A DNA stretch of 64,000 nucleotides from Miltoncostaea marina (lineage in GTDB: Bacteria > Actinomycetota > Thermoleophilia > Miltoncostaeales > Miltoncostaeaceae). Position 1 is the stretch's first letter. Each line of letters begins with the position of its first letter. Below are positions 38,798-44,313 of this stretch, piece by piece. The notes below the pieces were generated by a model. It made no database searches, was not told the DNA's origin, and was given only the letters and a program-made list of their open reading frames with translations. The translations under genes were made by a program, and so were the position numbers. The stretch lies in the NCBI RefSeq assembly GCF_018141525.1, contig NZ_CP064655.1, positions 1,612,001 through 1,676,000 of the forward strand, written 5' to 3'.

Positions 38798-40186
38798 TCA
38801 GGCGTCGAGCGGCGGCAGCGCGGCCGTCGGGTCGCCCAGCAGCACGAGGCTCTGGCGGTCGAACGCGGACAGCCGCAGCCACGTCAGCTCCTCGCGCACC
38901 GAGGTGTCGCCGTGGTCGAGCTGCTCCCGGCGCCGCGCCCACGCCGTGTGGAGCACCCCGACGCCCTCGCGGTACTCCCGGAAGGCGTACCCGAGCGGCT
39001 GGCCGTGGAAGAGGTTCGACGACAGGGCCGTCACGATGTGCGCGCCGAGCTTCTGGCCCGTCTCCGGCACCCGCAGCGTCCAGTCGAACGTCGGCTCGAC
39101 GTGGCCGAGCACGGCCCGCACGGGCCGCGGGCGGCCGAGCAGGGCGAGCGCGGCCGGCGCCACCACCGAGCCGAGCGCGGCGACGGCCTCCACGGTGGCC
39201 CGGGCGGTCGAGCCGGCGGCGAGCAGGTCGGCGAACTGGCTGGTCCCGGCGGCGCCGGCCGAGCAGCAGGCCTGGGCGTACCAGACCGCCCCGTGCGGCA
39301 CCGACCGGGCCAGGTCCGCGACGGGCACGGGCGCGAGGCCGGCGTCGACCGGCAGGCCCAGCGTCGCCGCCATCGCCCCCGGGGGCGCGAGCGGCATGGT
39401 GGCCCCGTGGCTCGAGGTGACGACGAGCGCCGGCGAGCGGCCGGCCGCCGCGTCGACCAGCGCGGGCCCGGTGGCCTCGGCGCCGGCCAGGACGAGCAGG
39501 CGCTCGAGGGTGCCGGAGAGCGCTTCCGCCAGGGGGGCGGCGATGGCCGCCCGCATGAGGGAGGTGATGTCGCCGCCGCCGTGGTCGACCGCCCACACGA
39601 GGGGCGCGGCGAGGTCGACGGCGGCGCCCGCCCAGCCGTCGAGCAGGGCGCCGACGTAGTGGCCGAGCGCGTCCCCCGACAGCGGCAGGCGGCCGACCGC
39701 GTGACGCACCGCCAGCGCGTACTGCACCGACCAGGGGATCGCCTCGGGGCCGGCCGCGATGAGGACGTAGCGCGGCAGCCGGTTGCGCGCGGTGCCGAAC
39801 GGCGTGAGCCCGATCGCGGGATCCTGCGAGGTGCCGTCGGCGTAGGCGCGCCGCACGAAGCGGTCGCCCAGCGCGGGCGTCCAGCGCAGTACGACGGTGC
39901 CCGGCCGGGCCGCGATCAGCTCGCGCACCGGCTCGGGCGCGTCCGCCCCGGCGGCGAGCTGCGCCGGGGTCCACGAGCCCGCCTCCGCCTCGGGCAGCAG
40001 CACGCCGTAGCCCACCTCGGGGTCCCACCAGGCCGTGGGGTCGGCCGGCGCGCCGAACGCCAGCTCCTGCTGGGAGTGCGGCAGGCCGGCGCGCGCCCCC
40101 CAGCCGGCGGCGCCGCGGTCCAGGTCGCCGCTCGCCGCCTCCGCGCCCGTCCACGCGTCGAGCTGGAGCGAGCCGGGGAGCGTCAT
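38798..40186 (-). CDS. CHAT/caspase-like cysteine protease
   Basis: 462 residues. A caspase-like dyad is visible: His260-Gly (VVTSSHGATM) and Cys307/308 in WYAQACCSAGAAG, close to the QACxG box of C14 caspases. An upstream AIPWSVQY corresponds to the conserved PWE segment of CHAT domains, and MPETGQKLGAH-like sequence (VPETGQKLGAHIV) lies in the C-terminal third. No membrane segment or other domain. Last gene of a four-gene operon; its ATG overlaps the stop of the preceding CHAT gene (ATGA). Substrate unknown; it could be the executioner or the activator of the hydrolase. Confidence 0.75.
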   Translation of the reverse strand: MTLPGSLQLDAWTGAEAASGDLDRGAAGWGARAGLPHSQQELAFGAPADPTAWWDPEVGYGVLLPEAEAGSWTPAQLAAGADAPEPVRELIAARPGTVVLRWTPALGDRFVRRAYADGTSQDPAIGLTPFGTARNRLPRYVLIAAGPEAIPWSVQYALAVRHAVGRLPLSGDALGHYVGALLDGWAGAAVDLAAPLVWAVDHGGGDITSLMRAAIAAPLAEALSGTLERLLVLAGAEATGPALVDAAAGRSPALVVTSSHGATMPLAPPGAMAATLGLPVDAGLAPVPVADLARSVPHGAVWYAQACCSAGAAGTSQFADLLAAGSTARATVEAVAALGSVVAPAALALLGRPRPVRAVLGHVEPTFDWTLRVPETGQKLGAHIVTALSSNLFHGQPLGYAFREYREGVGVLHTAWARRREQLDHGDTSVREELTWLRLSAFDRQSLVLLGDPTAALPPLDA

Positions 40187-41532
40187 CCGCCGACGCCGGC
40201 CAGCCGCTCGCGCAGCGCCCGGATGCGGGCCTCGACGTCGGCGACCACCGCGGGCGGCGTCCACGCCGGGTCGAGCCCGGCCCGGAAGGCCTCGAACTGG
40301 TCGAGCGCCCCGCGCAGCCGGGCGTACTCCTCGGCCGAGGGCGCCCGCCCGCCGTCCGGACGCGCCGTCGCGTCGTCGCCGCGCGCGGCGGGCGGCGCGG
40401 GCGCGGGCGGGACGTAGACGCGCAGCGCCTGGTCCTGGACGTAGAGGATCGGGTCCGACCAGGTGTCCGCCGAGGCGTCCCGGCGGCCGAGCGCCGCGCG
40501 GGCGTCGTTCAGCACCGTGCACCAGTCGAGCTCGCGCACGCCCGCCTCCCCGCCGGCCGGCGCGGCCACGTCGCCCACCACCTCCATCACCCGCGGGTAG
40601 AGGGCGGCGCAGAAGCGGTTGGCGTCCTCCAGGTCGACCACGCGGCGCATGCCGATCGCCGCGGGCAGGCCGGCGTTGACCAGGTCGTGGGCGAGGGCGG
40701 GCCCCTCCGAGGCGTCGGCGCTCGCGCACGCGCAGACCACGACCATCCAGACGTCGCAGGGCGCGATCGCCGCCGCGACCGCGGTGGCGCTCAGCACGAC
40801 CCCGCCGGGCGGCTCGCCGGCGTCGAAGTCGCCGAGGGTCCCGAAGGCGAGGGCGCGCAGCCCCTCCGCCACCCGCCCGCCGTGGCAGAGCAGGTGCAGC
40901 AGGTCCGGCTGCGCGGCGGCCAGCCGGCGCTCCAGGTCGGGCGTGACCGGCTCCGCGGTGACCCGCTCGTCGCCCCACTCGGCCACCAGGTCGAGCACGC
41001 GCTGCTCGCCGCTGATGACGTGGAGGCGGGCGCCGACGGCCGTCGCCGGCGCGTCGTCGAGCGCGGCCCGCAGCGCCTCGAGCTGCGGCACGCCGGAGCG
41101 GCCCACCGCGGCCAGCACGGCGACGATGCGGAAGGGCCGGGCGAGCACCCGGTCGCGCTGCGTCCGCCGCCAGCGGGCGATCCGGGCCAGGGGCCACCGA
41201 CGGTCGAGCGCCATGAAGCCGTGCGGCCCGGCGTAGAGCTGCTCCCACGGCAGCTCGTCGGCCGCGGCGGCCTCCATGTGGAAGAGCAGCGGCAGCGGGT
41301 CGCCGGCCGGCGGGATCGCGAGCGCGTTGTCGATGCAGGCCCGGACGGGCGGGTGGGCGCGGAGCCGCTCGAGCAGGTCGGCGCCCCGCTCGCGGGCCCC
41401 CGCGCCGCGGGGCGGCGTCACGTCGATCGGGTCGAGGCGGTGCATGTCCGGGATGTCGAGCGGGGCCTCGCTCAGCCGCAGCAGCGTACGGTCGTCGCCC
41501 AGCCGCGCGAAGGAGACGACCGCGCGGTTCAC
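40183..41532 (-). CDS. CHAT-domain protease
   Basis: 449 residues. DELPWEQLYAGPHGFMAL is the start of a CHAT domain, the catalytic His217 is in DLLHLLCHGGRV and the Cys in WMVVVCACASADAS (Cys267 or 269). The last 60 residues (SAEEYARLRGALDQFEAFRAGL) are a coiled coil, suited to oligomerisation. GTG start overlaps the upstream gene stop (GTGA) and its stop overlaps the next start, so dosage of the three CHAT proteins is coupled. Confidence 0.8.
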   Translation of the reverse strand: MNRAVVSFARLGDDRTLLRLSEAPLDIPDMHRLDPIDVTPPRGAGARERGADLLERLRAHPPVRACIDNALAIPPAGDPLPLLFHMEAAAADELPWEQLYAGPHGFMALDRRWPLARIARWRRTQRDRVLARPFRIVAVLAAVGRSGVPQLEALRAALDDAPATAVGARLHVISGEQRVLDLVAEWGDERVTAEPVTPDLERRLAAAQPDLLHLLCHGGRVAEGLRALAFGTLGDFDAGEPPGGVVLSATAVAAAIAPCDVWMVVVCACASADASEGPALAHDLVNAGLPAAIGMRRVVDLEDANRFCAALYPRVMEVVGDVAAPAGGEAGVRELDWCTVLNDARAALGRRDASADTWSDPILYVQDQALRVYVPPAPAPPAARGDDATARPDGGRAPSAEEYARLRGALDQFEAFRAGLDPAWTPPAVVADVEARIRALRERLAGVGG

Positions 41533-42923
41533 GGCGCGCCCGTCGCGTGCCGGGCGACGAGGTCGCGCAGGTCGGCGAGCGCCTGCGCCGTGCCGGCGTC
41601 GTAGGCGCCCCCGGCGCCGGGAGCCGGGCCGCGCTTCACCAGCTCGGCCACGGCGCGGTCGACGAACCGCTCGCTGGCCGCGACCCAGGTCGGCACGTGG
41701 TCCTCCGACGCGAACGTCCGCTGGATCGACGCGCCGGCCTCCGGGCTCGCGAGCGCGCCGGGCGCGGGCGGGGCTGGGAGCGGCGCCTCCTCGGCGACCG
41801 GCGAGGTGGGCGGGCCGGCGGCGGCGGCCGCCGGCCAGGGGTGCGCGAGGTTCTGCTGCACGTGCTCCGGCTGCAGGTACGCGAACAGCGACGGCGCGCG
41901 CGGCACGGGCGTCTCCCCCGTGGCGTCGGCCGCGAAGGCATGCGCCCACGCCAGCGCGTCCCCGCCGGGGTCGTCCCCGGCGTCGCAGTAGACCGTGGGC
42001 CCGGGCCGCCGCTGCCCCAGCGCGTCGGCCATCACGCGCGTCGCGGTGTCGGAGCGGTTCTCGGGCGGCGAGCCGAACGAGATCAGCCCCGCGCCGACGC
42101 GGTCGGCGAGGCGCTCGACGTCCTCCGCGGTGACGAACACGCAGCGGTCCCACCCGCCGGGCGCGCCGGGGTCGGGCGGCAGCGCGATGAGCGGCTGCTC
42201 GCCGTCGAAGGCGGCGGGGCTCACGGCGTGGAAGGCCCGCACGGCGCGGCGGCCGAGCCCCTCCACGATCCAGTCCGCCCAGCGCGTGCGCCCGCGCGGC
42301 GCGGCGTCCTGGCGGTCGCCCGCGGGCGCGGCCGCGGCCGGGTCGTGCACCCGAAGCCACCCCTGCGGCCCGCCGCCCGCGGCGTCGAGGTGGCGGGCGG
42401 TGCCGGCGTCGGGGAACAGGTCGACCTCCGCCGCCATGCGATCCCGCAGCGTGGCGGCGAGCCTGCGCGCGTGGCCCGCGGCCCACTGCGGATCCTCCAC
42501 CGCGTTGACGACGAGGGCCACGGTCCAGGAGCGGCCCGCGTCGGTCGCGACCGGCAGGCGATCGGGCACCCGCAGCACCGGGAGGTCGGTCGCGGCCACG
42601 AGCTCGCGCTCCCAGGGGACGCCGCCCAGATAGCCGTACGGCGGCACGAGGCGCAGCCACAGGGCGGCCTGCCGTCCCAGGCGGCGCTCGAGGCCGTCGG
42701 CGACCGCCTCGACCAGCGCGTGCGGCACTGCGAGCCGTGACGGGGCGACGCGGTCGCGCGCCAGGCCGAACCCCTCCAGCGGGTCGACGCGCGTCCACAG
42801 CCGCCGCGGGCTGTCGCCCTCGTAGACGGTGAGGTCGCTGTGCACGGACGGCTGCTCCAGGGCCACCTCGAGCCGCACGCGCAGCACCGACAGGCGCCAC
42901 GTCTCGATCAGGAGCTCGGCCAC
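41529..42923 (-). CDS. Degenerate CHAT-like protein
   Basis: 464 residues with the same overall plan as its neighbours: an N-terminal beta-rich region, YLGGVPWERELV (PWE motif), and a Rossmann-like second half. The His region reads RAFHAVSPAAF and the Cys strand GAGLISFGSPPENRSD, with no Cys at the expected place, so it is probably inactive. A proline-rich linker leads to a helical C-terminus (ASERFVDRAVAELVKRG). A regulatory or sensing subunit is the most natural role. Assignment rests on motif order, neighbours and length, not on a strong family match. Confidence 0.6.
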   Translation of the reverse strand: MAELLIETWRLSVLRVRLEVALEQPSVHSDLTVYEGDSPRRLWTRVDPLEGFGLARDRVAPSRLAVPHALVEAVADGLERRLGRQAALWLRLVPPYGYLGGVPWERELVAATDLPVLRVPDRLPVATDAGRSWTVALVVNAVEDPQWAAGHARRLAATLRDRMAAEVDLFPDAGTARHLDAAGGGPQGWLRVHDPAAAAPAGDRQDAAPRGRTRWADWIVEGLGRRAVRAFHAVSPAAFDGEQPLIALPPDPGAPGGWDRCVFVTAEDVERLADRVGAGLISFGSPPENRSDTATRVMADALGQRRPGPTVYCDAGDDPGGDALAWAHAFAADATGETPVPRAPSLFAYLQPEHVQQNLAHPWPAAAAAGPPTSPVAEEAPLPAPPAPGALASPEAGASIQRTFASEDHVPTWVAASERFVDRAVAELVKRGPAPGAGGAYDAGTAQALADLRDLVARHATGAP

Positions 42924-42978
42924 GCGTCCCCCCGTCGCGTCCCGGCCTCCCGCGCCGGCCGCCTCGCATGCGCGCCGG

Positions 42979-44313
42979 TCACGACGGCGCCGTCAGGGAG
43001 TGGAGGGCCCACCAGGTCGGCGGGCCGCTGATGTCGCCGTGGCCGCCGATCGCGGGGGCCCCGTCGATCGCGACCGAGCCGTCGACCGCGACGACGCGCC
43101 CCCGCGACAGGTCGTACGCATCGGTCGGCGCGCGGGCCGGCGAGCGGGCGAGCTCGTCGTCCCCCAGCCCGGCCGGGCCGTAGCCGCCGAGCGCGCCGTA
43201 CAGGTCCGTGTCGCCGATCGCCGCGATGTCGGGCTCGCCCACGTGCCCGCTGCGGATGGCGAGGTGGAAGAAGCGGTGCAGCGGCTCGTCGTGCCGCGAC
43301 CAGGTGGTCACCACGGGCATCGCGACACGGTCCAGGACCGGCCGGTACCCGCCCGCGCCCGCGGCGCCCGGCAGCGCGCCGGCGAAGCACCACCGGTTCA
43401 CGGCCGGCTGCAGCAGCAGCGCGCAGTGCGCCGGGCGGGCGGCCGCGGCGCGCGCCAGCGCCGACAGCACGACGCGGGCGCCGAAGGAGTGCCCGGCCAG
43501 ATGCAGGCGCGCGGGGCCGCCCCCGAGGATCGCCTCCACCAGCCGGGCCACGCCGCGGGCGCCCACCCGGCCGGCGCGTGCCTTCATCGTCCACAGCGAG
43601 CCCAGGCGGAGCAGCGTCCGCGGGTCCAGAGCCGCGCCCCCCGCCGCGACCGGGGCCGCCCCCGCCCCGGCGCCGACGGTCCCGAAGTCCTCGCCGTCCC
43701 CCGGCGGGGCGGCGTCGCCCTCGACGAGCAGCCAGGACGCGAGCAGGTCCTCCGGCGCGGGCCGGGGCGGCCCCTCGTCGTCGTCGTCCTCCCCGGCCAG
43801 CGCGCGGCTCACCAGCGCGGCCGCCCGCCGCGCGTCCGCGTCGTCCAGCGCGGTGGCGCCGTCGACGAGCTCCCCGAGCTCGGCGCGCCCCTCCTCGTCG
43901 AGCGAGGTCCCGACCAGGCGCAGCATCTCCTCCGCCTCACGGGCGTCCCCGCCCTCCGGGTCGGGCGCCGCCGCGATCGCCGGCCCGGCCTCCCACGGCA
44001 TCACGAAGCTCGTCGAGGGCCAGATGACGCCCGCCAGCACCGGCCGGTAGCCGGGCGGTGCCGGCAGCCCGTACCGGCGCCGCTGCTCGATGTAGCCCGC
44101 GGCGAACCGGCGGTAGCGGTCGAGCGCCGTCGCGAAGACGTTGTTCCACCCGTGCGCCACCAGGAAGACGTCGGTCGCCGCGGCGGCGGCGCCGAGGAAG
44201 TGCTCGGTCGTGCGGGGGCTCGCCGGCCGGCCGTCGGCGTCGAAGCGCAGCAGGTAGAGGTCGGCGGTGGCGCCACCGCCGATCGGGAGCCGCTCGTATG
44301 GTCCGACGGCCAC
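42979..44313 (-). CDS. Alpha/beta hydrolase associated with CHAT proteins
   Basis: 444 residues, first gene of the operon. Oxyanion strand ATDVFLVAHGWNNVF (48-61), nucleophile elbow RLHLAGHSFGARVVLSAL with Ser276, and a C-terminal SRHDEP and GGHGDIS that can supply Asp and His. A long acidic, probably disordered insert (140-225) separates the first strands from the elbow. Lipase or esterase activity is expected; in a conflict system it could attack membranes. GTG 44313 was preferred over an upstream GTG because GGGGAG precedes it. Gap to the next gene is 55 bases. Confidence 0.75.
   Translation of the reverse strand: MAVGPYERLPIGGGATADLYLLRFDADGRPASPRTTEHFLGAAAAATDVFLVAHGWNNVFATALDRYRRFAAGYIEQRRRYGLPAPPGYRPVLAGVIWPSTSFVMPWEAGPAIAAAPDPEGGDAREAEEMLRLVGTSLDEEGRAELGELVDGATALDDADARRAAALVSRALAGEDDDDEGPPRPAPEDLLASWLLVEGDAAPPGDGEDFGTVGAGAGAAPVAAGGAALDPRTLLRLGSLWTMKARAGRVGARGVARLVEAILGGGPARLHLAGHSFGARVVLSALARAAAARPAHCALLLQPAVNRWCFAGALPGAAGAGGYRPVLDRVAMPVVTTWSRHDEPLHRFFHLAIRSGHVGEPDIAAIGDTDLYGALGGYGPAGLGDDELARSPARAPTDAYDLSRGRVVAVDGSVAIDGAPAIGGHGDISGPPTWWALHSLTAPS

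Follow-up and report, generated by a model that had tools for sequence, protein, structure and literature searches.

The stretch of DNA analysed here (the window, 64,000 nucleotides of a Miltoncostaea marina contig) contains a compact run of four genes, g1 to g4, which raises the question of whether a serine hydrolase and three protease-like proteins constitute a single device and what such a device would do. An earlier note, made from the letters of this DNA, had read them as an operon of an alpha/beta hydrolase and three CHAT/caspase-like proteins, one of them dead, and had proposed that the hydrolase is a membrane-attacking effector, perhaps activated by proteolysis. The operon itself was confirmed: all four ORFs were found on the minus strand, with the positions assigned to them (Table 1), the overlaps are real (4 bp at both g2/g3 and g3/g4; the gap between g1 and g2 amounts to 55 bp), and the motifs GHSFG, SSHG/QACCSAG and LCHGG/VCACAS are all present. 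The GC content by codon position (0.80-0.84/0.55-0.59/0.98-0.99 in g1-g4) is that expected of genuine coding sequences, and ribosome sites of the GGGGAGAG or GGGGGG type precede the starts of g1 and g2; the long antisense ORFs across the operon are regarded as by-products because of the extreme GC3. Since transmembrane or signal segments were found in none of the quartet proteins, the module is taken to be cytosolic.

Table 1. Positions of the operon, its genes and their predicted functional sites within the window.
Feature	Position	Strand	Remarks
Whole operon, g1-g4	38798-44313	minus	four ORFs fill the stretch
g1, predicted alpha/beta hydrolase (DUF900-like), 444 aa	42979..44313	minus	GTG start, GGGGAGAG ribosome site; 33/36 relatives match PF05990
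g1 acidic, low-conservation insert, ~residues 136-225	43639..43908	minus	common to 36 relatives
g1 nucleophile elbow GHSFG (Ser276)	43480..43494	minus	triad partners Asp342 (43288-43290), His425 (43039-43041)
g2, predicted CHAT-fold pseudo-protease, 464 aa	41529..42923	minus	g2-g3 hhalign; AlphaFold
g2 Pro236, at CHAT catalytic His position	42216-42218	minus	His in only 9/35
g2 Pro286, at CHAT catalytic Cys position	42066..42068	minus	Pro in 28/35, Cys in 0/35
g3, predicted CHAT protease, 449 aa	40183..41532	minus	Pfam CHAT; SAVED-CHAT 8tl0 profile match
g3 catalytic dyad span, His217 (40882-40884) to Cys269 (40726-40728)	40726..40884	minus	invariant 36/36
g4, predicted gingipain-like clan CD cysteine protease, 462 aa	38798..40186	minus	AlphaFold; Foldseek
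g4 catalytic dyad span, His260-Gly261 (His 39407-39409) to Cys307-Cys308 (39263-39268)	39263..39409	minus	41/41

The protease-like proteins turned out to be less uniform than the earlier note had assumed. Judged by its sequence, g3 is a true CHAT protein: it matches the Pfam CHAT family (PF12770) with 35.3 bits (cut-off 24, E 1.1e-8), its nearest solved chain is the SAVED-CHAT protein 8tl0 (profile match, E 3.5e-6), and Gly218 is as invariant among the 36 relatives as the two dyad residues His217 and Cys269. The Cys-less paralogue is g2, the first of the three. None of its 35 relatives belongs to a Pfam family (the gathering score of CHAT, PF12770, is not reached), and neither the sequence search of the PDB nor Foldseek with the g2 AlphaFold model (pLDDT 87, pTM 0.88) gave anything significant; the profile-profile comparison of g2 with g3 (hhalign), however, aligned 226 columns with a probability of 96.5% and E 8.5e-10, which identifies g2 as a probable CHAT-fold homologue devoid of the catalytic dyad. 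As the position of the cysteine is never occupied by Cys and that of the histidine only rarely by His, g2 is interpreted as a conserved pseudo-protease.

The third protein, g4, falls outside the CHAT proteins: its profile comparison with g3 was weak (probability 13%), and the fold of its AlphaFold model (pLDDT 94, pTM 0.93) is nearest to the gingipains (Foldseek: gingipain K (Kgp), E 2e-6, TM 0.46; RgpB, E 1.7e-5; probability 1.00), at an identity of 9-12%. Weaker matches were those to separase and, further down, to SAVED-CHAT and Craspase. Both the His260-Gly261 and the Cys307-Cys308 pair are invariant and each follows directly on a beta strand, which is how they are placed in clan CD proteases; among the 41 relatives neither a Pfam family nor a hydrophobic N-terminal segment (signal peptide) was detected, and the PDB sequence search likewise gave no match. 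According to the model, g4 would thus be a gingipain-like clan CD protease by fold that stands outside the C25 sequence family. CHAT or caspase folds, as expected in the earlier note, were therefore found, and its trio is to be reworded: from the folds and active sites of g2, g3 and g4, it would comprise a dead and a live CHAT protein together with a gingipain-like protease.

The g1 protein itself has no convincing Pfam match and remains below the PF05990 threshold; its relatives match DUF900 (best E 4.9e-8), and the triad Ser276, Asp342 and His425 is unchanged in all 36 of them, as is His54-Gly55. The serine-hydrolase identity read from the GHSFG elbow was thereby upheld, and g1 is most plausibly a DUF900-type alpha/beta hydrolase. 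Likewise real and conserved is the long acidic insert: it precedes the nucleophile, measures 90-104 aa in all 36 relatives, carries an excess of acidic over basic residues of +7 to +19 in 35 of them, and shows a column conservation of 0.31-0.45 versus 0.6-0.8 in the core. The supposed attack on membranes, in contrast, found no support, the matches being confined to DUF900 and generic hydrolase families and the sequence search of the PDB with g1 yielding nothing significant; a membrane is a conceivable target of g1, and the acidic insert a conceivable cleavage site. The invariant catalytic residues of g1, g3 and g4 indicate that selection keeps three active enzymes.

The distribution of the genes was followed with g4 as the search query, which retrieved 45 genome loci with g4 relatives (that none of these loci lacks g4 is therefore in part an effect of ascertainment). 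The quartet was found in the same order at 31 loci by tblastn, and a further one (L010) was added for a divergent g2 seen in clustering; the resulting 32 of 45 loci bear out the earlier expectation that the four genes occur together in other genomes, reject a chance adjacency, and belong to Actinomycetota, Pseudomonadota, Chloroflexota and Gemmatimonadota. The distance matrices of g1-g4 are correlated pairwise at 0.68-0.79, which exceeds all 2000 permutations. That the quartet is a conserved module is regarded as nearly certain. Its spread is patchy and mobile: the quartet occurs in 2 of the 42 genomes of the order (one being a short partial match at a contig end) and in 2 of the 397 of the phylum, it is also located on five plasmids, of which two were typed as conjugative (separate plasmid searches with g1 and g4 retrieved the identical five records), and the tree requires six phylum changes versus a minimum of three, the Variovorax-Gemmatimonadaceae pair being supported. 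In a congeneric genome, the winged-helix and M20 peptidase genes that flank the operon (named by reading) are parted by just one small gene, read as a GNAT acetyltransferase, and this site is thus considered the orthologous site without the quartet. An origin from phages or prophages was rejected, as no quartet relatives were found in phage records or viral contigs; for an interpretation as conflict module, this absence is neutral. A near relative of one family member was not found in E. coli genomes. The families also differ in their rate of evolution: g2 and g3 evolve fastest (mean identity of 24% and 27%, respectively, versus 39% for g1 and 43% for g4), as expected for a sensing module.

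Deviating loci reveal which parts of the quartet can be exchanged. In two Bradyrhizobium loci, a papain-family protease occupies the place of g1, and two other loci (L016, L019) keep g2-g3-g4 in the absence of g1. Where the CHAT pair is absent, other genes stand just upstream of g1: in L029 an Hsp70 and a clostripain gene in a tight run, in L025 a Ser/Thr kinase gene whose end meets the start of g1, and in L030 a caspase-like gene; one further locus (L027) has the full quartet plus an upstream caspase. In Tahibacter (L040), g3 and nearly all of g2 have been lost, while g4 and g1 with intact triad persist; a 52-residue g2 remnant between them (L040:8714-8974, plus strand) marks a natural deletion of the CHAT pair, and this retention of g1 and g4 argues against a role of the CHAT pair in restraining g1. 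At L039:7105-14634, an integrase gene comes first, and g4 follows in one direction with the genes for an LCAT-like hydrolase, a caspase fused to VMAP-C, and a MoxR-type AAA protein. In Cellulomonas (L041), a subtilisin gene and two CHAT genes are oriented divergently to g4.

Several neighbours of these loci are recorded as observations of their own. The two CHAT genes and the subtilisin of Cellulomonas adjoin a gene for a 1279-aa TPR protein (L041:1053-4892, minus strand) with a C-terminal FHIPEP match (E 3.6e-12). About 2.5 kb downstream of g2-g3-g4 in L016, a trypsin-like protease is fused to a DNA/RNA non-specific endonuclease (L016:12944-15232, plus strand), which recalls protease-nuclease immune pairs. 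The caspase-like gene of L030 is overlapped by a 606-aa ORF (L030:4402-6222, plus strand), in which some 430 residues of unknown sequence precede a complete C-terminal ribosomal protein S5; a g1 hydrolase gene follows. Downstream of the g1-g4 pair of L025, a PLD-like ORF (by eye) and a C14 caspase gene are located on the opposite strand (L025:10460-13353, minus strand).

The search of the phylum with g1 yielded 14 further genomes; loci were fetched for 13 hydrolase matches, and 12 hydrolases entered the tree, in which they form a sister clade that lacks g2-g4. These hydrolases keep a counterpart of the g1 insert segment (140-171 aa), and an S8 subtilisin gene is located immediately upstream in 7 of the 12 loci; the five Streptomyces-type members have no adjoining protease. 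Hydrolases of the g1 type are thus repeatedly paired with unrelated proteases, which favors a protease-controlled hydrolase, whereas the Streptomyces-type members count against it. One of these five, a g1-like hydrolase (L097:7479-8864, plus strand), has its nucleophile serine replaced (GHG) and is apparently dead; its relatives adjoin NamZ-like genes. In L091:5833-10601 (minus strand), the genes for a subtilisin and a g1-like hydrolase form a compact run with those for a C14 caspase and a protein of 138 aa; the idea that this small gene represents an EACC1-type component was dropped, as Pfam gave no match for it.

A position beside known defence genes, as anticipated in the earlier note, was not borne out: defence genes were not enriched in the neighbourhood of the quartet, the 77 immediate flanking ORFs examined with Pfam and PADLOC belonging to ordinary metabolic families with generic PADLOC matches only. 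Among the system-specific PADLOC-DB models for known anti-phage systems, the single match was a partial one of SAVED_CHAT to g3, in which the CHAT part alone was covered. Upstream of the quartet on a conjugative Bradyrhizobium plasmid (L049:1-7070), DUF1156 and DUF499-HEPN_Swt1 genes (candidate defence) are present. These plasmid genes, the integrase and VMAP-C genes of L039 and the trypsin-endonuclease fusion of L016 are weak hints in favor of defence; the quartet might have an antiphage role.

Based on these results, the quartet is tentatively interpreted as a conflict module that is complete in itself, moves horizontally and centres on a serine hydrolase under protease control, a reading to which slightly less than an even chance is given. 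Its central element, the control of the hydrolase by the proteases, is considered marginally probable: in this part, the claim of the earlier note is sustained by the pairing with subtilisins in the sister clade and by the papain swap, and cleavage of g1 itself would be the presumptive step. A suicide or immune output of the quartet is rated more cautiously, as somewhat short of an even chance. The hydrolase g1 would be the output enzyme, restrained through its acidic insert, and g3 and g4 would act as cysteine proteases, either in series or in a complex. The dead paralogue g2, whose retention despite the missing cysteine was counted in favor of a conflict module, may be paired with g3 as receptor or scaffold, comparable to cFLIP and caspase-8; the sensor role considered for it in the earlier note is likewise conjectural. 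A danger signal, probably sensed via the fast-evolving g2/g3 pair, would switch on g3 and, in turn, g4; the proteases would then cut or release g1, which might hydrolyse an essential lipid or ester component of the cell, with the result that the cell stops. The order of this cascade, the substrate of the hydrolase, the trigger and the death of the cell are all conjectural elements of the model. In its most far-reaching form, the module would represent a whole undescribed class of immune or cell-death systems, i.e. a bacterial protease cascade with a built-in pseudo-protease, in which a dead and a live CHAT protein, paired like cFLIP and caspase-8, pass the signal to a new gingipain-like protease family that unlocks a gated serine hydrolase, with exchangeable outputs (papain or DUF900 hydrolase) and inputs (CHAT pair, Hsp70-clostripain or kinase); this generalization is rather unlikely.

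The exchange of partners can also be read differently. If proteases and hydrolase were parallel effectors, g3 and g4 would cut cellular proteins and g1 would separately attack lipids or esters, neither acting on the other; the papain in the place of g1 at two loci implies that proteolysis itself can be the output, and the persistence of g2-g3-g4 in the loci devoid of g1 agrees with such independence. The recurrence of same-type hydrolases with unrelated protease folds (S8, clan CD), the tight gene coupling and the retained insert nevertheless point to a specific relation, and parallel action is judged rather improbable. The tight coupling and co-inheritance of the four genes would equally suit a toxin with its guards, in which g2/g3 (and g4) are antitoxin-like inhibitors that sequester a constitutively active g1 until proteolysis removes the inhibitor; g1 and g4, however, occur without the CHAT pair in L040, L025 and L029, so that g2/g3 are not needed to restrain g1, and this arrangement is very unlikely.

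A role outside of conflict would accord with the ordinary metabolic flanks, devoid of defence enrichment, and with the fact that DUF900, the closest described domain, has no known function: rather than being a defence or suicide device, the quartet would then carry out regulatory or stress proteolysis, or form a processing pathway whose hydrolase alters one particular small molecule or peptide. Rarity and patchiness across the phylum, plasmid mobility and the exchange of the output gene are more in keeping with conflict systems than with metabolism, as is the VMAP-C/MoxR cluster beside an integrase in L039, and the regulatory interpretation is accordingly held to be unlikely. Returning to the protease-controlled hydrolase, its wider interest lies in the effectors activated by proteases (gasdermins, Csx30, pro-nucleases), a rapidly expanding subject in which bacterial immunity and the death of animal cells are connected. 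The contribution of the quartet would be a hydrolase as output and, for bacteria, a protease partner that is conserved although catalytically dead. Two of its families, g2 and g4, have no Pfam model. As the system is compact and coherent (four cytosolic proteins with invariant active sites), it is directly testable with three point mutants.

In the open literature searched, a description of the quartet, or of DUF900 in conflict systems, was not found; it is best regarded as a variant of known protease-plus-effector conflict modules, undescribed as far as this search reached. With the gingipains (peptidase family C25), g4 has in common the fold match to Kgp and RgpB as well as the His-Gly and Cys dyad; it differs in its predicted cytosolic location, in lacking a signal peptide and a Pfam match, and in its operon context, which is another one in the secreted gingipains. 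The CHAT domain of g3 with its intact dyad resembles those of SAVED-CHAT/type III CRISPR, the CBASS CHAT proteases and Craspase (TPR-CHAT), whereas the quartet operon contains no SAVED, TPR, CARF or Cas component. The VMAP (MoxR-vWA) ternary conflict systems include pairs of a caspase and an alpha/beta-hydrolase (Kaur et al. 2020, PMC7159879): in both cases a clan CD protease is found beside an alpha/beta hydrolase, and g4 in L039 indeed stands beside such a cluster. In contrast to these pairs, the quartet has CHAT and gingipain-like proteases instead of C14, a DUF900-like hydrolase and a dead CHAT partner; MoxR, vWA and VMAP genes are absent from the operon and its flanks and accompany g4 solely in L039. 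Gated pro-nucleases, including the caspase-nuclease canu loci, are activated by partner proteases (Tuck et al. 2025, PMC12799240); like the VMAP pairs, they are taken as a precedent for the proposed module. Their output is an MBL nuclease, whereas that of the quartet would be a serine hydrolase, presumably cleaved, with two cysteine proteases and a pseudo-protease at its side; common to both are an enzyme gene beside a protease gene and the combination of different protease classes with the same kind of output enzyme.
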